Of a stretch of 64,000 nt of DNA, positions 16,455 to 63,815 are shown one piece after another. The notes under the pieces are model-generated. The model was not told the DNA's origin, made no database searches, and was given only the letters and a program-made list of their open reading frames with translations. The DNA is from Nymphaea colorata. Taxonomy: Eukaryota > Streptophyta > Magnoliopsida > Nymphaeales > Nymphaeaceae. The translations under genes and the position numbers were made by a program. Position 1 is the first letter of the stretch; each line of letters opens with the position of its first letter. The DNA is taken from NCBI RefSeq assembly GCF_008831285.2, contig NC_045147.1, positions 12,527,427-12,591,426 on the forward strand. The letters are read 5' to 3'.

Positions 16455-17897
16455 GCATGAGGGTCCCTTGTACTGGTGGAGAGGACAATAATGGGGGGTT
16501 GGGTAATGTGGCGGGATCGCTGCTTATAGTTGTCAACTAATAAGCCAAACTCTTCCCGGCGACTGATAATGTCATTCATATTGCTCAACACTTGCTTTTC
16601 AAAGTGGCTGCTCTTTGTTAGCGAGAACTTTTTTTGCTGCCCTCGTACAGCAACTTGAGAATCCACCTTCGAATTAAGTGCTTAATTTGAGTGTGTATAT
16701 ATATCAAATATACAGAGTCTTTTCTTTTATTCTTTATGCTGAGAATTTCGAGATGCATCGCATGGCGTAATCTGGAGGATGTCTGCCCGACCTAAGCTTC
16801 TGCCGGAGTTTATCTGCACATAAAAAAACGGTTTCAGAAAATCAACTACCTTGACGTATACTTTCCAAATTTTCTAACTACGAAGACATATAATAAAGCT
16901 TACTAGTTACTAGTTATTGCTACAGTACCATCATATATTTCTGTGTTTTTCCCAAGGTTTCTGCACATCGAGAGTTTTCCATCGTACCAGTAACCCAAGG
17001 ACATGAAGTCTGGAGCATGAGTATTGCCTATGGAATTAAAGGATTAATATATACTCTAATTTCCATCAAATACTACTTACAATTGATCATGTGCACAATC
17101 TTATAAGTCTTAAAGGGGCGCCTCTGTCTGTCATCTTGCAGGAATGACTCGTCGTCGTAATTAAATTGATAAGGGCCTCAAAGAGGCATAGTACATCGAA
17201 CTTCCATGGTTGCTATCACTCTTCAACAATGTTATTGTTTTGAGTGCAAATAATCACAAACACGACACCCGAGTTAAAAGAGGTCCAAACAAATCCCAAA
17301 ATAGGACACACGAGGGTTTTTTTTTGAATGTCAACTAAATATCATAATTAACTTGATCTCGGTTGTTCAGTCATTTGATAATGGTTTCGAAATAAGAAGA
17401 TTTAATGTGATTTCCTAAAGTAAATGTCTTAAACGCCTTACTTTACTTGGAACTATACATGTTTCACCAAAAAAATGGAGATGCAACATGCGTTAGGTTT
17501 TTCGACCGATTTTTTTTTTTTCAAGTGCAAAGCAACCTAAAAAAATCTCAAGCGAGCCCACCTCCCCATCGACGTGGCTCAACTTGAAGCAGCAATTTAG
17601 AAGAAAACAAGAAAGAACAAAAAGAATAAGAAGCAAAGGAGCATTCAACACGCGATGTGATTTAATTGGTCCATGTACACCACCATATTCAAAACTCCAT
17701 TAAGCCCATTCCAACTTATTATATTCATATGATCAGAAAAACTTGTTTATTAGTTCTATATTAGTATTTATAGGCCATGGCCGGACTGGTCTGAGCCATT
17801 CCCATCATTCGCTTAATTAAGCATCATTATAGACAATCAAGGGAAACTAAAGCCGGCACGTTCCCCACAACGCCTCCCACTCCCATGTGTGCAGAGG

Positions 17898-19688
17898 ATG
17901 ACGGAGAAGGAAGATTACAGCACGGCAGAAGAATCAGATTCAATGGGGAGCATAAATCTCTCGCAGAAAAGCAAGAAGAGGAGGTTCAGCGATGAGCAGA
18001 TCAGGTCGTTGGAGAGGATCTTCGAGACGGAGACGACACGTCTGGAGCCGAGGAAGAAGGCGCAGCTCGCCCGGGAGCTCGGGCTGCATCCCCGGCAGAT
18101 TGCCATATGGTTTCAGAACAGGAGGGCCCGTTGGAAGGCGAAACAGATCGAGAGAGACTACGGCGTGCTCAAGGCAGATTACGATGCTCTGCTTTCGAGC
18201 TGCGAGTCCCTTAAGCAGGAGAAGCAAGCTCTCTTGAAGCAGGTAAACTCTTGCTCTAGTTGCTCAGTTGTTGCTCTTATTTATCTCCAAATTCAGTGTA
18301 CTTAATACAGACGTTCTTAGACTACTGGAGGACATGAAAATCCTTAGAGTTTCTACCAGTAAACTTGCTAATCGTATGCTGTTATAGCTGATGCCAGCGA
18401 TTAAGTAGTTCAGTTGGGGCGTCTTCCATCATAAATTCCATTTCTGATGGGTATAGAGACTTTGTTTGAGGTTAATTGAAACCTATTGTAGACAATCTTA
18501 TATAAAACAATCTTATATAAAACACATACACTTTGATGCAAAGAGGAGCAAAGATGGGTTGATTAATGTAGACATGATCTAATTAGATAATCTACTTTTT
18601 CACTCTTCATTTTTTCTTTTCCTCAAATCTCACATGATCAGATGGTTGAATCAAACACGGAAATAGAACCCTTGTCAATGAAATTAGGCCTATTTGTCAC
18701 TGTGGTTGGGGTCTGCTAAGTTGGACTGATCATCTGATGGGATTCCATGAATCCTAAATCTACAGGAACTTTCCCCTAATATAAGGTTGAAGTTGGGTGT
18801 ACTCTCGATGGTTCTTACAAGAAACATTCTTTAGGAATGAAGGAGAGAATGTCTAATCCGTTGGTTCTTGTCAAAGAAAACGAAAAAGTTCATATCAGAC
18901 TAAGGATGAAAATGCCATATAAAAAATAATATAATACTCGGACAGAGTAGCCAAGGACTTATCATTTCATCTGAAAAAAGAAAAGGAAAAAACGATTCAG
19001 CTGTTGGTCCCATTAGTTCCTGGTGGGACCCACCATCAAAATACTCTGCTGCTGTTGAAGAAGAAAGTAGTACACTGGCTCCTCCGTTTGAACACCATAA
19101 CATCTCTCATATTTCACGAATCTGCTGAATCCATAGCTGACGTGAATAAAAAATCAAACTCCCAAATTTTGATACATAATCTAATGAGCACGGGTAGCTC
19201 GATCCAAGCCTAACCCCATGGTCGCAAACTAGCGAACCTTGGCTCGAGGCGAACCTCTCTTCTTCCTTCTATGAAACATATCACCAAATTGCTGGTTCTT
19301 TAAACAGTTGCAGAAGCTCAGTGGCCTTGTAGAAGAGCAACACAAAGCGGGTTCCACGGAGAAGAAGGCATCGTGTCGACCTGTTTCTGCTGCGAACACC
19401 GAGGACGGTGAGTCGGACAACGTGGACGGAAAGTCGTCAGAAGAGAAAGGTGTTAAGCCGAAAGAAGAATCGGGTTTGAGGTTGGCTCTGTTTGCAGAGA
19501 GCGAATGCAGCAGCAAAATTCTTGATACATGTAGGAAGAAAGAAGAGGATGAAGAAGTGGGGAAGCTTGTCAATGTCAGCAGCTGCGGCGCCGGATACGA
19601 CCCATTTACTGACGATGATGGATCCTACGTTTTACAGGCCTTTTGCTGTCATGATCAGCCTTACCAATGGTGGGAGCTATGGCCTTGA
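17898..19688 (+). CDS. HD-Zip class I transcription factor, ATHB7/ATHB12-like
   Basis: Two exons, 17898-18242 and 19308-19688, give 241 aa; the 1,065-bp intron is GT/AG and phase 0. An acidic N-terminus leads into a homeodomain (about residues 27-82, with [10 protein letters not shown] and the recognition helix [16 protein letters not shown]) and then a leucine zipper. The zipper leucines fall at 91, 98, 105, 112 and 119, so the heptads cross the exon junction at residue 115, which supports the splice model. The C-terminus ends YQWWELWP, the aromatic tail typical of the ATHB7/ATHB12 subgroup. That subgroup is known for ABA- and drought-responsive growth control through CAATNATTG sites; that role is inferred here. 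The ATG at 17898 is chosen; the ATG at 17885 is out of frame. Confidence 0.93.
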
Positions 19689-23137: not shown

Positions 23138-26100
23138 TATCTGGCTTTACGAGGACCCATCTCGATTTTACGGTTCTAGCAGACTGTAAACTTGAGAATC
23201 TTGCCTTCAAATGTCACCAAATCTATGAATGTCAAAGGGAAAGGTTTAGACATTAGATTCATGGGTTTTAGCATGCAAGGATTACAGTTTCGCGATATCG
23301 ATCGTTCATCTCGCAAACTGTGGATTCCAAATCTGACGGCTGTTGATGCTAGAAACATCCACTGACCAGAGCAGCAGTACTCTTTTCTCCATGCAGCATC
23401 TTTACAGCAGTGTTCGTCTGCTTATCGTGGTGACGAAGCTATATATATATAAAAGAAGCGGAGGAAAGTTAATGACGTACTTGGTGCTCAGAAACACAAT
23501 CTAATGCCATGGCCCATAATAAGATTTTTTCACCTGCTGATCGAGAGTTCTGTAAAGTAAAATCTTCATACTCATAACAGAAGTTGGCGACAGGATCTCC
23601 TGTTGACGTTGCGCTTTCTGAAGAAGCACGAAAGCGCTGTACGTGCTCAAAAAGCATCACATTATGATAAACGATAGTTTCTATGAACGAGGAAGAGAAC
23701 TAAGCAAGAATCTTCATTTTCTCCAATGGATCGCAAATCAAACTCGAAGCGGAAAAACTTTTCTAGATATGAAGGCACAAACGGTGGACGATACCTGCAT
23801 GTGGAGGACGTTTCAGGCTACCAAGTTTGCAGAATCGGTGAAGACAAGGCCCTTAAACCTGCATGAGTAAAAAGTCTTACAGTGAGATAAATGAGGAATC
23901 GCCCCTGCGGGAAACCTGCTTCGGTGTGTCAGCAACTATTTTGCGAGCTCCTGCAACACGAAGACAGCGGAGAAGATGACAGCAGTAGGGCTTTAAAATG
24001 AGAAACGGACAAAATCAAGACCGTACGTTTCCTATCTTCCAGCTGATCTCAGCCGTTCGTCGAAACCGTGAGCTGGAGGCGGACCAGAAAAGGAGTCCAA
24101 GAGTAGTACGTGCACGTGGGCCCCACCTGCATACTCCAGGACACCTCCAATTTTTTCTGCCTCTCCCGTCGATCCTTCTCTCTCTCTAAAGACACGACTC
24201 GAGAGGAAACCCTAGCTCAAGGGCAAGTCAAAGATCCTGTCAACATTGAATTACTCAACAAAACTTCGGTTTCCGAAAAAGATAACTACAAATTTTTGCT
24301 TTAAAAAACGATAGGGCAGTCCCTTCCTGTTTCTTCTGCTGCTGCTTCTCTCTCTTTCACATTCATTCATGCATTCATTCATTGCTGCACGCTGAACACC
24401 GCAGTAAGTCACGAAAATATGCATGAAAGTTTACTTAACAAATTAATGTTCACCATTTTCAAGTTTCAACCTCTCTCTCTCTCTCTCTCTCTCCCTCCGT
24501 TTATTGCACTGCCTGATTTTGAGGCGTTGGGTAGCGGCGCCAATGTGAACGATCCTGATCTTATGTCCTAAGAAAGCTTGCCTCGAGCCATGATATCTTA
24601 GAAACTTGGTACTTCACCATTGCTCTACTCTCTCTCTTTCATTCAGTATTGATTTTCAAGAACAGACAAATCAGAGGAGCTATATGGACAACAACTCCAC
24701 GATTCAGCTTTCTTGATATATTTACAATAACAATTCTAATACCATGGCGGTCGTTCTGAAAATATATATATATATATATATATCCAAAGTAAAAAATAGC
24801 TACTTAAAAAAAGCACATTGGATCAATTCCCGATGTCCCAATGCACTAGGCTTAGTCCAATAGGGAAGTGTAGTCCCTAAAAGGGACCGATCTTAAATCG
24901 GTCAAAGTGTCAAACTCGTGTTCAAATTTCTAATCACTGCTTGTTTTCAGCCATAAATTTCGAAAAACGAACGATCTTAAATGGTTGGAACATGCTATCC
25001 CTTTCTTTTTTCGCTATTTTTCTTGCTATTGATCTTGTTCTACGCGTGAAACCGATAGTGATAAAAAGGGGATGGAAGGAATAAATGCGCATTTGGAATC
25101 CATGACGTAGCAACTTCTATGGATGCGTGGCCTGTGGACTGAAGATCCCATCTCTCTCTCTCTCTCTTCTTTGTTTCATGGGTTTCGGTATGTTCAACAT
25201 GATTTTCAGGCATCTCTCTCTCTCTCTCTCTCACTCTCACCTTTGCGTTTGGCCGTGTTCACAATGATTCTTCATCCCTCCCCCATGAGCATCATCACCC
25301 TCTTTTCTCTCGCTTTTTCTTCCACTTTCAGCTAACTTTGTACCCATTACACAAAAGGCGTTTCGGTGGGAAAAAGATGAAAGCTTCAGGTGTGAAGCAA
25401 AAAGAGATTAAAAGGAGGAGTAAAATGATCGAAAAAGATAAGCACAGGAGAATGCGTTTTGGGACAGAGAGAGGGAGGGAGAGAAAGACTCACAAGGCAG
25501 CTTCATGGACAGAGTGAATGATGCGAGAATCAAGGAAACATCAAGAGATGATAAACAGGAGCGCGAGAAACAAGCAGTTGAGATCCAAGAGATCAGCAAA
25601 TTGAACACCCATCATCCAGATCGAGTGTTGCAATAAGTCCTCAACCTAACGAGTCTAAAACTCATCGTCATCTCCTCCCTCTCTCTGTCTGTGTGTCTGT
25701 CTGTCTGTGTGTTGAGTTTCAGGATAATGACTATCAAACACAAACACCGCACAAGTGCGAGGACAATAGATAATGGAAAATCACGAGTGAAAAAAATGAA
25801 TGGAAATATCCGATTAAGCGCTCCACATTATTCCCGAGTTAATAAGAAAAGCACACCCATTTGCTTCGACTTTGAGACGAGACTTAAACTCCGCTTAGAA
25901 TCATAAACCAATCACACAAACAGTCGGAAACAAAAAAAAAATGCAGGAGAAATGACAACCCAACAAAAGAATCAACAAGTAAAGCCAGAAATATAAAACT
26001 GAAAGGGCCCTTCTTCACCCAACACCTTATACCTGAGGAAAAAAACAAAAACTGGACAGGGAAAAACAACAAAAATTTCATGGAGACGAATTATTGCAGC

Positions 26101-26400
26101 CGAAGTAAAAAAAAAAAAAAAAGGAAAGCATTTTCGTTCATATTCGAGCAGAAAGAAGAAAAAAATCATTAATATGCATAAAAAGAAACACAAATCCACA
26201 GATCCAGTAAAGAAATGATGATAGAAGTACGCACAATCATAAAACCATGAATGCTTGCACCAGATGGCCGGAAATCCATCATGACCAGGCCTTTTTACGG
26301 CCATCATTACTCCAATCTTTCCCTTCCATCGACCCGAAAATCGACCATCATTACTCCTATCAGGGAAAACACCAACCAAAAAGGGCAAAAAGAATAAAGA
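20902..26400. other. Gene-poor interval left of MIR166
   Basis: No gene is assigned. It contains (TA)n at 23070-23139 and 24762-24782, CT tracts at 24472 and 25142-25232, and two small open segments worth noting: plus 23183-23365 (60 codons after a TTCTAGCAG acceptor-like site, to a TGA) and minus 23484-23637 (open, ending at a CAA|GTACGT donor-like site). Neither matches a family I know. Downstream exons of the spliced MIR166 primary transcript may also lie here. Confidence 0.4.
23070..23139. repeat. Imperfect (TA)n microsatellite
   Basis: About 70 bp of TA dinucleotides with a single G and a single C interruption. Confidence 0.95.
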
Positions 26401-26426
26401 TAACGAGATGGGGATCGATGAACTTA

Positions 26427-26429
26427 CCT
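26427..26429 (-). other. Strong 5' splice site downstream of the MIR166 hairpin
   Basis: Minus-strand AAG|GTAAGT, the last exon base being 26428. It suggests that the primary transcript is spliced after the hairpin exon (about 26990-26428). No acceptor is assigned. Confidence 0.5.
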
Positions 26430-26494
26430 TATTCATCAACAAAATCAGAATCTAAGGAGAGATTTGGGGCTCAGAGCGGGGAGTGAGGTTTTGA

Positions 26495-26515
26495 GGGGAA
26501 TGAAGCCTGGTCCGA
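26495..26515 (-). ncRNA. miR166: Mature miR166
   Basis: 21 nt on the 3' arm, 5' U, identical to the commonest plant miR166 sequence as I know it. Confidence 0.95.
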
Positions 26516-26661
26516 CGGCACTCACACGAGCAAAGCAAACGGAAACGGAAAAAGGAAAAGCAGGGGGAGGAAAGGCGGGGGGAAGGAAGGAACTAGGAAG
26601 GAAGGGGAAGCTTTATTTTTCCATTTCCTTTTCCTGCTTCTCCTCCCACACGTGTGAGTGG

Positions 26662-26682
26662 CCTCGAGCCAGACAACATTCC
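26662..26682 (-). ncRNA. miR166* (passenger strand)
   Basis: 21 nt on the 5' arm, matching the well-known miR166-5p type, with the mismatches expected opposite miR166. Confidence 0.9.
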
Positions 26683-27020
26683 CCACAAACGGAGAAAAAC
26701 CTCCCAAAAGTCTCGCTTAAAAAAGGGGCCGCGGGAAGAGGGGTTTCTTCCCGACGCTCGCGCTGCAAAAAGCTCCTCCCTCTGCTGGTTTCGTCTGCAA
26801 CAAGAATGACCACCACCCATCCATCATCATGATATGATGATGAGCGGGAGGGGAGAGAGTAGCAGGAGAAGCGGAGAGAGAAGTTTAGGAGGATTCACAA
26901 GGCAAGAGAAAGAGACGGCAAGGGAAAGGGGAGGAGGGATAGAAAAATCGATAAGAGGATGACTCGTAAAAGACAGAAAAGGACAACCAGTTAATGCTAC
27001 CTACAGGAATCACCGTGCCC

Positions 27021-39205: not shown

Positions 39206-39297
39206 TCAGGATGAGTATGATACAATTCTTAAAGATTTGCGACTGCCAAACTTCTAGTAAACTAGATCGCATTCAAAATGGCTCCCTTCAAAGGAAT
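39115..39297 (-). repeat. 91-bp tandem duplication spanning the F-box gene stop codon
   Basis: The word starting TGAATATAATACAATTCT at 39121 recurs as TGAGTATGATACAATTCT at 39212. The gene-proximal copy holds the last coding residues and TAG; the distal copy, in the 3' flank, repeats the same coding end (CATTTTGAATGCGATCTAG) followed by its own in-register TAG. About 90% identical by eye. Confidence 0.9.
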
Positions 39298-40978
39298 TAA
39301 GTGCCTTCTTGCTGAGACCGGGGCAGTTCTTCAGGTTCAAATTGGTCAGCCATACTAGTCTATCGAGATGGACCAAGTCACCATCTTTAAGAGCATTTCC
39401 AGAAGCGTCTAGATCTCTCAGCTCTGCGCAGTAAAATGCAATGATCTGCAAGCTTAGGCTGGTCAGTCCCACACATTCGCTTAGGCCTACCGACTTAAGT
39501 TCCGCACCAAAGGAACGAGCAATCTCGAGGATGGCCAGATCCGTCAACCCACTGCAACCATTCAAGCCCACTCTATCTAAGGTTCTGGTTCTCTTACCAC
39601 AGCCCATGAGCAGGCCTGTAACTCCCCTATCTGAGAGGTCTCTTAAGCCAACCAATTCAACTTCACGTACATTACAACACACTCTCCCAAGCCATCCAAA
39701 GAAACCGTCTCTTAGACTGAAGCAGAACCCAACAGTCAGGGATTCTAATCTGTTGCATGAAGGTGATGAGGTTGGAGGCAACCAGTTTCTTGGTTCCACA
39801 ACCCTGCTGCACTTGACTAACTTAAGAGCCTTCAAGTTCTTAGCATGCCTGGTAAGGAACTCCACCAATCCACTGAAAGAAACCCTTTTACATCCCTCTA
39901 ATGTCAATTTCTCTAGGCCAACCACCCTTTGGCCTAACTCTATCAATTCCTCATCATTCAATGTTGTGCACCCACTAATGGTTACATTCTTCAGGTTGGC
40001 ACACTCTTTTCCAAGAGCTCCGATCCTAGTCAATCCCCACCTGCTAGGACTCTCCGGGAAACCGACCCCTTGGTCCTCCCCAATGGTGCAATTGCTATCC
40101 CTTTGGCCGGCGCCGGAAGACTGGAAGCTGCAGTCTTCCAGCGAGAGGGACGTTAGGGTCTTGCAGTGCCGCAATATTGCCAGCACTGCGTGCAGGTTTG
40201 AGCGGAGCTGGGCGAGCCTGAGCCTCTTCAAATTGGGCAGGCCTGCTAGGATTGCAAGCACACCCTCATCCCCCACCAGGCGACATCCCTTCACTGATAT
40301 TGAATGTAGCGTAGGGGTGTGCGTCCCAAAGGCCTTGAGGCTGATGTTTCCGATGCTTTGGCATGAGTCCAGGCTCAATGTGGTCAGCTTCTTGAGCCCT
40401 CTGGCCACAGCCACCATGCCCTCGTCTGTGATCAAAGGGCACTCGCACAGATCAAGCTTTTCTAGTTGAGCACATCCCTTCGAGACACAAACCAGACCCT
40501 TGTTGGTGATATGAAGGCAGCCCCAAAGGGACAGTGATCTCAGGCAAGGGAAGCCGGAGCCGACTATGTCAAGCCCACGGTCGGTGACGCCGTAAGGTGG
40601 TAAGCAGCTCGACTCCTCCAAGAAATCACCTCTGATACTCAGGTCGCCAACTATGCCCCTACCCCACTTGCGGACGGCCATGGCAGCCAGCCTTGTGTCC
40701 ACTGCATGGCTCCCCTCCAGGCACCTTCTCAGGCGGCTGGATTGGCTGGGCGGCTCCATCTTGAAGTCTGATCTCTTCATGTGGGCTTGCAGCAGAAGCC
40801 ATTTCTTGCACACCGCTGCGCACTGCCAACGATCTGCAGGGCCAGGGTTGAAGCTGAATATCTCAAGGATGCACTCATCCGGCAGACCATTGAATGGGTT
40901 CCCTCTATTGTCACTGTCGTCCTTCTCCATCTTCATGGTCTTTCTGGTCTTCTTCCCCCTGGAAGACCCAAACCCCAT
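39254..40978 (-). CDS. EIN3-binding F-box (EBF1/EBF2)-like F-box/LRR protein
   Basis: Single uninterrupted frame of 574 aa. A basic N-terminus leads into an F-box (about residues 29-66, with LPDECILEIF and VCKKWLLL), followed from about residue 120 to the end by cysteine-containing leucine-rich repeats such as LEKLDLCECPLITDEGMVAV and LTTLSLDSC. Order, LRR type and the C-terminus ending in ECDLVY resemble EBF1/EBF2, SCF subunits that send EIN3/EIL1 for degradation and so damp ethylene signalling in the nucleus. Classical EBFs are about 620-650 aa with a longer N-terminus and an intron; this copy is shorter and intronless, so it may be a diverged or retro-derived member. The ATG at 40978 follows a CTCTCT-rich leader. 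Substrate identity is inference. Confidence 0.8.
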   Translation of the reverse strand: MGFGSSRGKKTRKTMKMEKDDSDNRGNPFNGLPDECILEIFSFNPGPADRWQCAAVCKKWLLLQAHMKRSDFKMEPPSQSSRLRRCLEGSHAVDTRLAAMAVRKWGRGIVGDLSIRGDFLEESSCLPPYGVTDRGLDIVGSGFPCLRSLSLWGCLHITNKGLVCVSKGCAQLEKLDLCECPLITDEGMVAVARGLKKLTTLSLDSCQSIGNISLKAFGTHTPTLHSISVKGCRLVGDEGVLAILAGLPNLKRLRLAQLRSNLHAVLAILRHCKTLTSLSLEDCSFQSSGAGQRDSNCTIGEDQGVGFPESPSRWGLTRIGALGKECANLKNVTISGCTTLNDEELIELGQRVVGLEKLTLEGCKRVSFSGLVEFLTRHAKNLKALKLVKCSRVVEPRNWLPPTSSPSCNRLESLTVGFCFSLRDGFFGWLGRVCCNVREVELVGLRDLSDRGVTGLLMGCGKRTRTLDRVGLNGCSGLTDLAILEIARSFGAELKSVGLSECVGLTSLSLQIIAFYCAELRDLDASGNALKDGDLVHLDRLVWLTNLNLKNCPGLSKKALNSFEGSHFECDLVY

Positions 40979-43620
40979 ACAAGAGAGAGAGGTTTTTTGA
41001 GCGGTAGCAAGAGAAAGAAGGAAGGTGGTCTCTAAAAATGGAGGCAGTGCAGAGGCTACTTATCGATTAGAAGCAATCCTGATATGGGGGAGTCTCGTAT
41101 GCAGAAAGAAGTTGGATGGTTTTTTGAAGATTAAAAGAGGGAATCAGAACTGCAAAATCAAAATCGCAGGCTATGAGGGCCGCACCCTTTTGTCCTCTCT
41201 CTCTCTCTCTTCCTTTAATAATAGAAAGCATAAAGAAACAGTACAGCTGCTCAAGCGACCAATGGAAGCTAAAAAAAAAAGAAGAGAAAAGGAGGCCTTC
41301 TCGTTTTTCTGCTCGCGCAATTTGTGCCAAACAGTTCTTCTATAATGGAAAATTTCGTCCATTTGCTTGTCATAGTCCGTGTGCGTGTTGACCCCCTTTA
41401 TCAGAATGAAGGGCAATCGTATTTGCTCCTTCTGCACCGCCGACGTCGATGCACAAACCGAGATGACAGTTCATGAGAACCAGAAGCTTTTACAAGTAGC
41501 TACTTGGAGTTGGCTCAGTCTGGCAAACTTTTCGGCCTTTCAATTGAGACTCCTACTGGTTTGAGTTTGACAAACCTAGCTAATTTTGGTGGGGAGTCCT
41601 GAACCGAACCAACTTAAGCTCATACTAGCCAAACTGGATCAAACTGTCCCTTTGCGCAAGTGAAGCTTCGACCTTTAGAGATTCATATGCGAAAGGATAT
41701 TTGTTGCTAGATTTTCAAAATGAGCTTTCATGGTGCGGCCCGGACGCTTGAAACCATGTCTGGTCGAGCCTGGCCGGCCTCCCATTGCAAGTTGTATCAC
41801 GGAATTCAACGTCATTAACGAGAAAGCGATCAAGTTGGTTCAAGTAACTGAGCCTGTGTGCCCTACTGAATCACCATTATGAATGTTTTTGGACCGACCT
41901 CTGCTGAAAATGAGCAGCCCAACTTGAACAAGTGGGTTCATTATTTATATGGGGGTGTCTCAAAAGCACCAATTCAGATGGCATTTCCTTCTGCCCTTCT
42001 TTTTTGCAGAATGCAACTTGGACGATTCCTTGTCGAGAAATATGGAAAAAAGGAGGATAATAACTATATGAAGAAGGCCGAAAATAATAGAGACAAGAGA
42101 GCATGAATGAGGAACGAAGAAGACACAGGATTCATCAACACGAGAAAACTGGAAAGGCATTAAAATTCTTCTTCTACTTGAACTAAAGCCTCAGGAAAGT
42201 GATCTGTAGGACTTTACTTCTTGAACCCTTCATAAAGGAAATGACCGTGCGTGCTGTAAATTGTTAATTTTCATCTCTGATCTGTGCTAATCTCGGTTAC
42301 CTTCCCAATAATCTATGGGGGTAAAATAGATTTTGTCTTTCCCAGCAAATTCTAATTTTAGATGGATTAATCAAACCCAAACAGGACACTGACAGGATAA
42401 CGAATTTTCTTTCTTTTTCTTTCCTTAATTGATTGCGAACAGGGCCTGATGGATTGACAATGAATCTTCTTGGCTCGGCCGTTTTATATTTGTTCTTGAA
42501 TAGATATTGATGAATGCCATCCTTCCAAATTTGTCATGGTTAATATGGGAGCGTTCTTAAGCAAGTTTCCCTCTTTTTTTTGGCTTCTGTAAACGGATGA
42601 AGAGATAAGTTCTAAAAGTTGAGGTGGCTCTTCATAGTTTATTCCATAATTTAATCGCGAGATACGGGACAATAAATGTATTCAAGAGAGCAGTTAGTAT
42701 CAATTTCTTTCCTCTCTATCCACCAATTATTCTTTCCTAGGGAACCACCAACCACTGTATCTCCACGACCTCCTTCATTCTCCTCACCATCAACCTATGT
42801 TAACTATCAAAAACCATATGAATCATCACTTCATCCTTGATCAGGAAAAGTGGATATTTACTTCCACTTGCTTGCCCATGTCAATAGTGAAAGCCATGCG
42901 CAGGATTCTTCTACTTGCATGTGAACAAGCCAGTTGCTCACCGCCTTCATTTTCCTCAAACAGTGACCAACCAATCTCAAAGTGGTCACATAAGTGTCAT
43001 CATGTTACAGAGTTAAACTGCAGCGATCTTTACTGCCAAACTAATCCGGTAAAAAGCAAGACGGGACTTAAATTTACTGCACTTGTCTGGTTCTTCTGAA
43101 CCAACTAATGATCTAGCTAGCCGCTTGGACCGTCTGTTACGACCCGTTTACCAGGCACCCTCCCCCTTCAAGACTACATGCAGTTCATCACCCATATGCG
43201 GACAGCCAACATTAAATGATAGGTTCTGCAACTTGAGTGACAGGGAAGCTTTATTCGAGACTGGCTGGAATCATTATCTAATCCCACCATGACAAGTGCT
43301 CGCCTATGGATCTTTATAGCGAGCTGGGGCCATTGTGCATATCAGCTACATAAAATGATCTAATATTTGATTTTTTTTTTTTTGGGAAAAGATTATAACA
43401 ACTTGATGGTCTCCTAGGAATGTAATCTACCACAGTACCCTTCTTGTCCTGGAACACGAAACTTTGGCTCCACTTGCTCTGACTCAGTTGCAAGTTTCTT
43501 GTTTTTTAATGCACTGACAGGCACATGTCCCCCATCCGAACCGACTTCCGATTGACTGAAAACTAAAACTCGTCAATTTCTTGGTATGGTGCTGAGTACT
43601 GAAGATTAGCAACAGACGAT
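40979..43620. other. 5' flank of the F-box gene and adjacent intergenic DNA
   Basis: The first few hundred bases should hold the 5'UTR and promoter, including an AG/CT-rich tract at 41190-41212. Beyond this only short open frames without known domains are seen. Confidence 0.4.
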
Positions 43621-58074: not shown

Positions 58075-58551
58075 TGAAAAAGAAATAGGAAGGATGAAGA
58101 TGATGAACAAAAGAATTAACGTGGTTCGAAAAAAATTCCTACTTCCACGACTCAGTCATCAATTTCATGATGATCTGGTTTCCTTAATACAGTATTTATA
58201 CATTGCTATGTCTGATTCGAATTTGAATCAGTTTCCTTGAATTTCTCCTTTGGTTTTGAATAGGAGAAACTGCCATTCTCCTGAAATCTTTCATTATTGT
58301 GAAGAGGCGTTTTCGTTGCTCGTCCGATTGGCTTTGCTTCCATAGTTGTTGCTCTTAATTTGCTGGAATTCTGTTTTATTGCTGGAGCCTTATCAAGATG
58401 CGTTTTAGTCTCTTGACGCTCATTGCTGATTTGATTTCCTGCCATCTTAGTTACACCTGATTTCCTGCAGTTGTAATCCACGCCTGATTTCCTGGAGTTA
58501 TGAGCCGTTGGAGACGCACCTGAATTTTTGGAGTGAGCTGGTGCGTTATCA
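58075..58551 (-). repeat. 3' LTR of inner copia element
   Basis: 477 bp; on the minus strand it begins TGATAACGC and ends CTTTTTCA. Contains three copies of the word GCAGGAAATCA or a close variant near its 5' end. Confidence 0.95.
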
Positions 58552-59326
58552 TCCCCCTCAACCGAAGGGAAGGTTGCATACGTAAGCCAAGATGCTGAGT
58601 GAGAAAGGTGAGGCGTTGCTGAGATAAAGGTTTGGTAAAAAGATTTGCAAGCTGACCTTCGGTTGTGACGAATTGAGTATTCATATTTCCCAATGCGACT
58701 TGTTCACGAACAAAATGATAATCAAGTTCCAAATGTTTCATACGTGAATGAAAAACTGGCTTGATAGTGGTATGTAGTGCTGAAATGTTGTCACTCAAAA
58801 GAATAGGAGCTTTGGAGAGATAGACACCGAGATCTTGTAAAATAAAGGTAAGCCATTTAATTTCAGCAGCAGCTCCGGCGAGAGCCTGGTATTCAGCTTC
58901 ACAGGACGAGCGAGCAACGGTCGGTTGTTTCTTAGAGCTCCAGGATATACAATTTGGACCAAGGAATGTGCAGTATCCGGAAGTCGATCGGCGTGTATCT
59001 GGACAGCCCGCCCAGTCTGCATCAGAGTACGCTCGGAGAGTCAAATCTTGGGATTTATAGAACTGGATACCATATTGAGATGTGCCTCGAACATAACGTA
59101 TAATGCGTTTCAAGATTTGAAAGTGTTTCATCGTTGGGGCATGCATGAATTGACATGCAAAATTGACTACATAGGAGAGATCTGGCCGTGTAAGTGTCAA
59201 GTACTGAAGTGCCCCTGCAAGACTTCGATATGCTGTAGCATTGGAATAAGGTGGATCAATTTCCTCAGAAGATTTGGAACCGACAGTAATAGGCGTGCTC
59301 ACTGTTTTACATTGTTGCATTTGCGC
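58451..59326 (-). CDS. Copia polyprotein, RNase H part (after the TGA, same frame)
   Basis: Continues in the same frame directly after the TGA; an internal ATG is at 59320. It carries the RNase H domain: [41 protein letters not shown] and LANLFTKPL. The frame does not stop before the 3' LTR: it reads through the polypurine tract and about 100 bp into the LTR, to a stop at 58451. Together with the part before it the frame spans 1,404 codons including both stops. Confidence 0.92.
58552..58561 (-). other. Polypurine tract of inner copia element
   Basis: TTGAGGGGGA immediately precedes the 3' LTR on the minus strand. Confidence 0.85.
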
Positions 59327-62300
59327 TCAAGAGATAATGTCTTGAGCATATTTAGACTGATGCATAAACAAGCCATTGAAAGTCCGTTCAACTTGAAGTC
59401 CCAAGAAATAATTCAGATCACCTAAATCATTCATAGCAAATTGTTGTCTGACGGTGACGAGGAATGACACTATAAATGAATGGGAATTTCCTGTAAGAAT
59501 AATATCATCAACATATAGTAATAGAATAGTGACCGATTTTTCTTGTCTACGAACAAAGAGAGACGCGTCGGTGACACTGGCAATGAAGTCCATAGAGAAT
59601 AAAAATTGTGCAAATCTGTCGTACCACGCCCGAGGAGCTTGTTTCAATCCATAAAGAGCTCGATTTAATTTGCATACATGAGCTGGCTTGGACGGATCTT
59701 TAAATCCAGGAGGCTGCTCAATGTAAACCAGCTCACGAAGATGCCCATTTAGAAACGCATTTTTGACATCTAATTGTTTTAGAGGCCAGTTAAATGCGAG
59801 GGCAAGACTAAGAACGATTCTTATAGTAGCAAATTTGACCACTGGGGAAAAAGATTCCAAGAAGTCCAAACCTTGAACCTGGTTATATCCTTGTGCTACG
59901 AGACGCGCTTTGAGCCTTTCGAGCTGCCCATCTCCTTTGAGTTTAGTTTTGAAAACCCAGCGGCTTCCGATCACATGCATGTTTGGTGTACGAGGCACGA
60001 GATCCCAAGTATGATTTTCCTGTAAAGCAACCATTTCGTCTTTCATAGCTTGATACCAGCCTGGGTGTTTAAGGGCAAGGGTGTAATGAGATGGTTCAAG
60101 TGGAATGGATGAAGTGGTAAGGGCATACTTAAGATTAGGTTTTATGATGCCGGATTTGGATCGAGTAGTCATAGAATGAGTTGAGGAGGAGGTAGTCGAT
60201 GGGACTAATGGTGAACTGAGTGGCTCGAGTTGGAGAGGTGACGTAGGGGCTGGTACAGGTATAGGTGGCAAAGGGGAAGGCTCTTCGGTATTATGCATTT
60301 GGGCTAGACGTTGAGATTCAAGATAAGGCTCATTGGACGAATCTGAAAACGATACAAAGTCAGCATTAGAGGTTATGGGCTTAGGAGTTGGCATGGTGTT
60401 TTTGTAGGGAAAATAAGTTTCATCAAACACAACATGACAGGAGATATATACACGTCCAGTGGGAGGATATAGGCATCTATACCCTTTATGATGGTTGCTA
60501 TATCCAATAAACACACAAGGTAACGACTTCGGCTGAAACTTATGATTCGTATATCCTCTAAGGTAAGGATAGCATCTAGATCCAAAAGCTCGAAGGCAAG
60601 AATAATCATGCCGTTTCTTGTAAAGCACCTCATACGGACTTTGCATGTGTAAAACTTGTGATGGAAGTCGGTTGATAAGCCAAACTGCAGTGGAGAAGGC
60701 CTCGGCCCAATATTGAGCTGGAAGATGACTATGAAATAACATAGTGAGACCTAATTCTGTAACCGATCTATGTTTTCTTTCCACCATACCATTTTGCTCT
60801 GGCGTCTTAGGACAAGATTTTTGATGTTTGATGCCATTCTCCTTTAAATAATCTGTAAGAACCAAACTGTTAAACTCGCCCCCTTCATCACTTTGAAAAA
60901 CTCTGAGCTTTGCATCAAATTGTGTTTGAATCATTTTGTGAAATTCAAGAAACTTGGCAAAAAAATCAGATTTCCGTTTTAAAGGATAAATCCATGAATA
61001 TTTAGAGAATTGATCTACAAACAAAGCATAATATCTTAGATTCTGACAAGATGCAATAGGAGTTGGTCCCCATAAGTCACAATGTACTTTAGAAAACAAA
61101 GAATCACAATCATCATCAACAGGAAGAAAAGGAAGTCTACACGCCTTCCCCATCTGACAACTGGCACAAGTAAAAGATTTAGGCAAATTTTCTGTCATCG
61201 TAATCAACTTATTTGCAGTCATAAAGTCTAACACTTTATGATGTGGGTGTCCAAGACGTCCATGCCACACTTCAAACGAAGCTGATCGAAACCGTGTTGA
61301 AAAGAACACATTCTTCGGTTTTGGCTTGAGAGCATACAAATCACCTTCTCTAGACCCCGTTGCAATCACTTCCTTGGTCTCCTTGTCCTTAATAACAAAG
61401 AAATTTGAAGAGAATTCAAACACATAAGGCATAGTAGAAGTAAGTTGACTAACTGAAATCAGATTTTTCTTGATGTCGGGTACAACAAGAACGTTGTCTA
61501 GAGGAATTGTGCGATTTCCCACATGGATATCGGCAACTCCAATATGTGTAATATCAAGATGTTGGCCATTTCCTACCATGATTTTGTCTGTTCCTTTATA
61601 TGGAATGCAACTTTTGAGTTTACCTGGATCATCGGTCACATGAGAACTTGCTCCGGTGTCAGGAAACCAGTCTTGATTAGTTGGATCAGCGATTTTCATA
61701 GCAGCAAATGCCCGTGACATATCACGTGGTTGATAAGCATGATCAAATCTGTGATAACATTTAAAGGCATTATGATTATTTAGGCCACAAATCTGACATG
61801 ATACCTTGGATTTGTTCGTCTCTCCATTGGCCGATCCTTGTTGATTTTGAGTCTTAGTTGCTGGATTGAACCCACGTCCCTTGGAGTTGAACCGACTATT
61901 GTTGCTATTGATATTGCGCCAACTATTGTTGTATCGTTTTCTGTTGTTTTGATTGGTGGATTGTTGTGTAAAGAAGGCCATTTGGTTGTTCAATCTAGCC
62001 TCTCCCGCATGTAAGTCCTTCATTGTTTCATGCCCTTGAAGTAGTGACACTGTATCAAGATATGAGGGAACCGGTGGCTTGAGGATAGAAGTCATAAACG
62101 ACTCATATCCTGGTCCGAGACCATTAACAAGCCAAAAGACTTTGTCGTCATCCTCAAGAGGCTTCCCAATCGCTGCAAGTTCATCACATATAGCTTTGAA
62201 ACCAGTAACATATTCAGTCACAGGTTTATCTTGTTTGCGGTGGAGTTGTAGTTTTCTTGTTAGCATCATTTCTCTGTCCTTTGACTCACGAGCGAATGCT

Positions 62301-62662
62301 CTGGTCAATGTTTTCCATACTTGTTCAGAGGTTTCAAGTCCCACGACAAGCCCAAGGACTTCTTCTGTGAGAGACCCAGTGAGCCATCCTCTTAGAAGAC
62401 AGTCTGATTTTTTCCATGCTAAAAAATCAGGATTTGGTCGTCTCATAGCTTCACCATTTTCAATGCATTCAATGATAGAGGTGGGTGTGGTAATCGACCC
62501 ATCAATAAACCCAAGTAAATCTTGACTTTCTATGAGTCCAAGAATTTGAGTTTTCCATAGCAAGAAATTCTTGTGCGACAATTTGATGGAAACAAAATTG
62601 GCCACGTTGATCGCGGAAGGGTATGGATACTTAGCTATTGTTGATGTTGTTGATGCTGCCAT
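59327..62662 (-). CDS. Copia gag-pol polyprotein, N-terminal part (to an in-frame TGA)
   Basis: Frame from ATG 62662 (start of the gag, MAASTTS; a further in-frame ATG lies at 62695) to a TGA at 59329-59327. Residues counted from the upstream ATG: gag/UBN2 domain about 20-240, zinc knuckle CX2CX4HX4C at 300-313, aspartic protease DTGA at 346-349, integrase zinc site from WHGRLGHPHH (477) to CASC (510), integrase D540, D603 and E639 (D-35-E spacing), reverse transcriptase with YGLKQAPRAW and the catalytic YVDD at about 1061-1064. All active-site residues that I can see are intact. The order protease-integrase-RT-RNase H identifies Ty1/copia. Confidence 0.96.
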   Translation of the reverse strand: MAASTTSTIAKYPYPSAINVANFVSIKLSHKNFLLWKTQILGLIESQDLLGFIDGSITTPTSIIECIENGEAMRRPNPDFLAWKKSDCLLRGWLTGSLTEEVLGLVVGLETSEQVWKTLTRAFARESKDREMMLTRKLQLHRKQDKPVTEYVTGFKAICDELAAIGKPLEDDDKVFWLVNGLGPGYESFMTSILKPPVPSYLDTVSLLQGHETMKDLHAGEARLNNQMAFFTQQSTNQNNRKRYNNSWRNINSNNSRFNSKGRGFNPATKTQNQQGSANGETNKSKVSCQICGLNNHNAFKCYHRFDHAYQPRDMSRAFAAMKIADPTNQDWFPDTGASSHVTDDPGKLKSCIPYKGTDKIMVGNGQHLDITHIGVADIHVGNRTIPLDNVLVVPDIKKNLISVSQLTSTMPYVFEFSSNFFVIKDKETKEVIATGSREGDLYALKPKPKNVFFSTRFRSASFEVWHGRLGHPHHKVLDFMTANKLITMTENLPKSFTCASCQMGKACRLPFLPVDDDCDSLFSKVHCDLWGPTPIASCQNLRYYALFVDQFSKYSWIYPLKRKSDFFAKFLEFHKMIQTQFDAKLRVFQSDEGGEFNSLVLTDYLKENGIKHQKSCPKTPEQNGMVERKHRSVTELGLTMLFHSHLPAQYWAEAFSTAVWLINRLPSQVLHMQSPYEVLYKKRHDYSCLRAFGSRCYPYLRGYTNHKFQPKSLPCVFIGYSNHHKGYRCLYPPTGRVYISCHVVFDETYFPYKNTMPTPKPITSNADFVSFSDSSNEPYLESQRLAQMHNTEEPSPLPPIPVPAPTSPLQLEPLSSPLVPSTTSSSTHSMTTRSKSGIIKPNLKYALTTSSIPLEPSHYTLALKHPGWYQAMKDEMVALQENHTWDLVPRTPNMHVIGSRWVFKTKLKGDGQLERLKARLVAQGYNQVQGLDFLESFSPVVKFATIRIVLSLALAFNWPLKQLDVKNAFLNGHLRELVYIEQPPGFKDPSKPAHVCKLNRALYGLKQAPRAWYDRFAQFLFSMDFIASVTDASLFVRRQEKSVTILLLYVDDIILTGNSHSFIVSFLVTVRQQFAMNDLGDLNYFLGLQVERTFNGLFMHQSKYAQDIIS

Positions 62663-63132
62663 TATGACCGAGATGTCCTCGTTCAGGATCAACACACTCG
62701 CAGTCCTCTTCTTGGACTATTACAGCAACTCAGCAGGGAATCACCTGCAGCTGAAAGATCACTAGCCGGTGAAGATGTGCTTCAATGGCCGGCTCGTTTC
62801 TCCCTGTAGGGAAGGCGGAAAATCGTGTTCTCAAGCTTGCTGGAATGCTGAGGATGTCAGTGACGTGATGGCACCAGCGAGAGAGAGATCCGATGTCTGG
62901 TATGTTCAGCAGGAGTAACTAAATAGAGAGTAGTTTCTCTATGTCACAGGTACAGCACCCTGTCTCAGCCTGTCAAGAAACAGGGCTGTCTTCGCAGGTC
63001 TCTCGATTTTGACTCAAAGCTCGGATCTTTGCGTGCAGTAGCTCTTTTGAAAACTAGGAATGTCAGGAAGAGAATGGCACTGACCTTGCGAAAATCTGAT
63101 GGTGGTATCTCCAGATACAATCCGTTAACCTG
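62663..63132 (-). other. Untranslated leader of inner copia element
   Basis: About 470 bp between primer-binding site and gag start; nothing coding is seen. Confidence 0.7.
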
Positions 63133-63144
63133 TCTCTGATACCA
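63133..63144 (-). other. Primer-binding site (initiator tRNA-Met type)
   Basis: TGGTATCAGAGA directly follows the 5' LTR on the minus strand; it matches the usual plant copia site for the 3' end of tRNA-iMet. Confidence 0.9.
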
Positions 63145-63615
63145 TGAAAAAGAAATAGGAAGGATGAAGATGATGAACAAAAGAATTAACGTGGTTCGAA
63201 AAAAATTCCTACTTCCACGACTCAGTCATCAATTTCATGATGATCTGGTTTCCTTAATACAGTATTTATACATTGCTATGTCTGATTCGAAATTGAATCA
63301 GTTTCCTTGAATTTCTCCTTTGGTTTTGAATAGGAGAAACTGTCATTCTCCTGAAATCTTTCATTATTGTGAAGAGGCGTTTTCGTTGCTCGTCCGATTG
63401 GCTTTGCTTCCATAGTTGTTGCTCTTAATTTGCTGGAATTCTGTTTTATTGCTGGAGCCTTATCAAGATGCGTTTTAGTCTCTTGACGCACATTGCTGAT
63501 TTGATTTCCTGCCATCTTAGTTACACCTGATTTCCTGCAGTCCACGCCTGATTTCCTGGAGTTATGAGCCGTTGGAGACGCACCTGAATTTTTGGAGTGA
63601 GCTGGTGCGTTATCA
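63145..63615 (-). repeat. 5' LTR of inner copia element
   Basis: 471 bp, same termini as the 3' LTR; it lacks a 6-bp segment that the other LTR has near 58470. Confidence 0.95.
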
Positions 63616-63815
63616 TTTATATGTGTTCTCAATGGATTCTTGATTACAGTTTTGAAAAAAATCCATCCTTTCTTTTATTGATACATTATAGACCGCTGGG
63701 TCCTTCCTTCTTGATTTGGGCGTGCCTCTCTTGATTGCCTTTGATGGTCGCCTTTCCTTGTTGTGGTTCAAGGGTAGCTTCACTTGCTTTTCCTTTTTCA
63801 TATAATGTCTTAACA
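63616..63815 (-). mobile_element. Outer copia element (family 2): U3 part of 3' LTR
   Basis: Begins TGTTAAGACATT on the minus strand directly after an AGGGGGGA polypurine tract (63816-63823). It is interrupted at 63616 by the inner element and resumes at 58074. Confidence 0.85.

Follow-up and report, generated by a model that had tools for sequence, protein, structure and literature searches.

Does the 64,000-nt stretch of Nymphaea colorata DNA analysed here (C10:12527427-12591426, referred to as the window) carry an intact MIR166 gene on its minus strand, and do the open frames that overlap the hairpin have a meaning of their own? MIR166 is an ancient gene, whose product, microRNA166, restrains a small family of developmental regulators in land plants. 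A sequence-only reading had proposed such a gene, with the mature miR166 on the 3' arm, its passenger strand miR166* on the 5' arm and 2-nt 3' overhangs on the duplex of the two, and had pointed to the open frames across it. The proposal was followed up in the window and in the genome searched (408 Mb, 783 contigs), and the features of the locus are collected in Table 1.

Table 1. Features at the MIR166 locus, in window coordinates
Feature	Position	Strand	Remarks
MIR166 precursor hairpin (Rfam RF00075)	26490..26689	minus	73.3 bits; fold z -6.66
Mature miR166 (3' arm), TCGGACCAGGCTTCATTCCCC	26495..26515	minus	exact 21 nt; 19-nt core with nine genomic copies
miR166* (5' arm), GGAATGTTGTCTGGCTCGAGG	26662..26682	minus	identical string in published papers
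Upper stem and long loop	26516..26661	minus	from the fold; longest hairpin of nine copies
Candidate TATA box, TATAAAA	27021..27027	minus	candidate, from sequence
Candidate intron of primary transcript	26033..26427	minus	donor AAG/GTAAGTT after 26428; acceptor TTTTTTTCCTCAG ending 26033
110-aa open frame, antisense to hairpin	26500..26832	plus	probably chance
75-aa open frame across 5' arm	26593..26820	minus	probably by-product of star sequence
37-aa open frame, first of predicted transcript, ends before hairpin	26717..26830	minus	probably meaningless

Elsewhere in the window, a tRNA-Leu gene was found at 2176-2257 on the minus strand, and a 601-aa open frame at 39254-41059 (minus) contained an F-box and leucine-rich repeats by Pfam; we take this frame to resemble the EBF1/2 proteins of the ethylene pathway. 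Near-identical direct repeats at 58075-58552 and 63145-63616 (98.1% over 478 nt) flank a Copia-type open frame (59327-62716, minus) with gag, integrase and reverse transcriptase domains recognised by Pfam, and the adjoining frame at 58451-59326 gave no Pfam match. The element spanning 58075-63616 is probably a young LTR retrotransposon.

The Rfam MIR166 model was matched end to end on the minus strand at 73.3 bits (E 1.2e-15), the gathering cut-off of RF00075 being 60 bits, and the plus strand scored 35.6 bits, below that cut-off. The Rfam match and the scores of both strands settle the feature and its strand. Folding of 26480-26700 (minus), the check proposed in the sequence-only reading, yielded a stable stem of -83.7 kcal/mol against -55.8 +/- 4.19 in 200 dinucleotide shuffles (z -6.66), none of which folded as well (0/200). 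Family score, fold and duplex together thus bore out the gene on the strand that had been named. The lower stem of about 11 nt is less certain than the duplex, with pairing probabilities of about 0.5-0.8 at 26485-26489. The loop is CT-rich. A second, phased miRNA adjoining the duplex on its loop side was rejected, since the 3' arm has few paired bases at about 26532-26549. Dicing modes differ among members of the MIR166 family, according to an excerpt of PMC8688358.

Both 21-mers were found on exactly the bases previously assigned to them and in the correct order of arms. G26682 pairs with C26497 (probability 1.00) and A26664 with T26515 (probability 0.95), which leaves the anticipated 2-nt 3' overhang at both ends of the duplex, and co-folding of the two 21-mers gave the same geometry. 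Structural criteria for plant miRNAs in an excerpt of PMC12594335, which also lists two expression criteria, allow up to 5 mismatched nt, an asymmetric bulge of up to 3 nt and a precursor of up to 300 nt; the duplex studied here has three mismatched positions (one C x A and two U x U), no asymmetric bulge inside, and a precursor of 200 nt. The exact star string is that of rice miR166d in the portion of PMC3161970 consulted. With as many as 3 mismatches allowed, the window contains a single occurrence of the 19-nt miR166 core; among 100 shuffles the mean was 0.01, with a match in 1/100. The exact 21-mer had no matches in the collections of viral contigs or of genome contigs, as expected of a plant gene.

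Search of the genome with RF00075 returned nine loci (18 rows, each locus being seen on both strands), seven of which exceeded the cut-off on their better strand, with L008 and L009 at 58.3 and 57.6 bits. Since 45 of 68,835 first-look candidates were scored, nine should be read as a minimum where looser relatives are concerned. Run on 14 control genomes, the same search gave no matches. The exact core TCGGACCAGGCTTCATTCC occurred nine times in the genome, always (9/9) within an RF00075 hairpin, and the reversed core used as control had no occurrence there; the mature 3' ends read CCCC in five loci, CCCT in two and CCTC in two. Two tandem pairs were present, L006 followed by L001 on C8 and L007 followed by L004 on C10 near 17.74 Mb. 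The pairs, whose hairpins lie around base 1500 in each locus, have similar spacing and member order, and it is likely that both derive from one old tandem pair copied through a larger duplication.

Comparison of the nine copies showed that the window hairpin is like the family described by RF00075 in mature and star sequence, arm order and duplex geometry, and differs from it in length: at 200 nt it is the longest of the nine, against 86-143 nt in the eight sister loci and 111 positions in the model, the excess being its longer loop. Its closest copy is L003 on C9, which matches at 87% over 77 nt, including 33 nt upstream of the hairpin, and at 83% over 60 nt in the 3' arm; loop and promoter gave no alignment to L003. 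Aligning all nine hairpins gave 27 predicted pairs, six of which carry changes at both bases without loss of pairing in one or more of the sequences; these six border the miR166/star core or lie beyond it. Covariation is slight, with a term of -0.14, because one strand hardly varies.

Upstream of the hairpin, a CA at 26996/26995 lies 32 nt past the candidate TATA box, and a transcript start near 26995 is predicted; none of the eight sister loci showed a TATA-like site at a comparable distance. The full donor consensus AAG/GTAAGT stands 62 nt past the hairpin, and an acceptor ending at 26033 is likely. The donor motif [CA]AGGTAAGT had a mean of 0.003 on the minus strand in 300 shuffles of 25500-27000 and occurred four times in the whole window, both strands taken together. 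Donor-like sites lay 58, 60, 62, 63 and 69 nt past the hairpin in L001, L004, L005, L008 and L009 (five of the nine loci). This position at 58-69 nt recurs in four of the eight sister loci, against an expectation per 20-nt slot of 0.015 when computed on the nine loci and 0.005 on the window; because the slot was picked after inspection and some copies are related, the recurrence serves as support and not as a test. L002 and L003 had no donor in the 58-69-nt slot, and L006 and L007, which lie upstream of L001 and L004, would share the donors of those copies. These signals suggest a MIR166 gene with two exons. Barley MIR166n, as characterised by RACE in an excerpt of PMC3558349, is likewise a two-exon gene with the hairpin in exon 1 and one intron after it; its exon 1 and intron were measured at 510 and 258 nt, whereas about 568 and 395 nt are predicted for the window gene.

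An intact hairpin might nevertheless belong to a silenced or decaying copy that has lost its transcription. Nine copies make single ones dispensable, and that of the window has the longest loop of the nine, CT-rich, and a promoter that does not align to L003. Such decay is, however, at odds with mature and star arms that are intact and form 2-nt overhangs, and with the presence of TATA-like and donor sites, and we regard it as highly unlikely.

The open frames across the hairpin were indeed present on both strands, as had been reported, but the importance implied for them found no support in shuffles, in Pfam or in L003. The 110-aa frame (plus) and the 75-aa frame (minus) are the longest in 26200-27000; frames of equal length arose in 30/500 and 138/500 shuffles, respectively, and Pfam gave no match for these two or for the 37-aa frame. 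Were one of the three a real protein-coding gene, similarity among the sister loci might be cited in its favour, as the 110-aa frame matched L003 (E 3.2e-5) and L001/L006 (0.009). The antisense match in L003, however, falls for the most part within the conserved arms and their immediate surroundings and contains an internal stop, and the L003 frame runs for 31 aa from its own MKPGP start; the 110-aa frame also begins MKPGP, presumably owing to the likeness of antisense miR166 to the target site. Likewise, the 75-aa frame reads GMLSGSR through miR166*, as in Arabidopsis miPEP165a, and the star frame of L001 is open for 131 aa, but the latter resembles the 75-aa frame only around the star, and the L003 segments that match the 75-aa frame fall in two different frames. 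In L002, L006, L007 and L009 the star frame is short, at 4-23 aa from the first Met. For the 37-aa frame, no match better than E 0.19 was obtained in the eight sister loci. The overlapping frames look like chance, and it is extremely improbable that this is a protein-coding region.

A miPEP is a peptide translated from the 5' part of a primary transcript and raising its own miRNA, and the 37-aa frame or the 75-aa GMLSGSR frame could in principle encode a leader peptide that raises transcription of this one MIR166 copy. GMLSGSR is common to the 75-aa frame and to Arabidopsis miPEP165a (MRVKLFQLRGMLSGSRIL; excerpt of PMC7178249), presumably on account of the star sequence. The 75-aa frame differs from miPEP165a in its flanking residues and in its distant upstream start, and another frame precedes it in the predicted transcript. 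Published peptides derived from miR166 differ between species, that of grape, miPEP166c, having the sequence MLSTNKNTIIHIYR (excerpt of PMC10855927), and a passage of the review PMC11055055 describes Arabidopsis miPEPs as without significant sequence similarity. Because published miPEPs are so dissimilar, missing conservation is weak evidence against a peptide; we nonetheless consider a leader peptide at this locus very doubtful.

That the hairpin resembles MIR166 by chance has a negligible probability and is refuted, for although 7 of 1160 window segments (221 nt, both strands, step 110), all of them elsewhere, fold equally or more strongly by raw energy, the family match has an E of 1.2e-15 and the nine copies of the exact core in the genome are confined to MIR166 hairpins.

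Targets were sought through the MEKHLA domain, which is located at the end of HD-ZIP III proteins. The genome has MEKHLA-domain exons at two loci, L014 and L015 (four rows of the search), and the same search matched in one of 14 control genomes, that of a cyanobacterium. Upstream of MEKHLA on the coding strand, both loci read GGGATGAAG, then a GT...AG intron of 80 nt in L014 and 72 nt in L015, which splits the target site, then CCTGGTCCGGA. Once joined, the two halves form a target site of a type already known: miR166 pairs with it throughout positions 2-16, forms G-U pairs at positions 1 and 17 and is mismatched at positions 20-21, which amounts to a penalty of 3.0 on a simple scale of our own. 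Further upstream, both loci carry a homeodomain-like exon with YTPEQVEALER and QIKVWFQNRR. The target site is present in both HD-ZIP III loci examined (2/2), which places regulator and targets in one genome; additional HD-ZIP III genes may exist. Within the window itself, no other miR166-like site was found beyond the MIR gene at up to 3 mismatches, in a search of contiguous sites. The window also holds an open frame at 17817-18305 (plus) with a homeodomain and a HALZ leucine zipper by Pfam, which we assign by resemblance to HD-Zip class I rather than to the targets of miR166.

We conclude with high confidence that 26490-26689 on the minus strand is an intact MIR166 gene, which would act through the following pathway. 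Transcription by RNA polymerase II would begin at about 26995, the primary transcript would be spliced, and the miR166/miR166* duplex would be excised from the hairpin by DICER-LIKE 1. The miR166 strand would load into AGO1 or AGO10 and would then direct cleavage of HD-ZIP III mRNA at the site TGGGATGAAGCCTGGTCCGG. Hairpin, duplex geometry, family membership, the eight sister loci and the target sites in two HD-ZIP III genes were computed here, and transcription, start site, splicing, dicing, loading and silencing were drawn from knowledge of the pathway. In Arabidopsis, AGO10 and AGO1 compete for miR165/166, and the miR166/HD-ZIP III pair is well studied, with meristem, root, vascular and stress roles (excerpt of the review PMC11276106).

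The window gene is thus a typical MIR166 member of a well-known family, well-formed and with its targets present. The finding is chiefly useful for annotation: one of the genome's nine MIR166 loci is located, together with a probable promoter and intron, and is connected to HD-ZIP III targets of the same genome.
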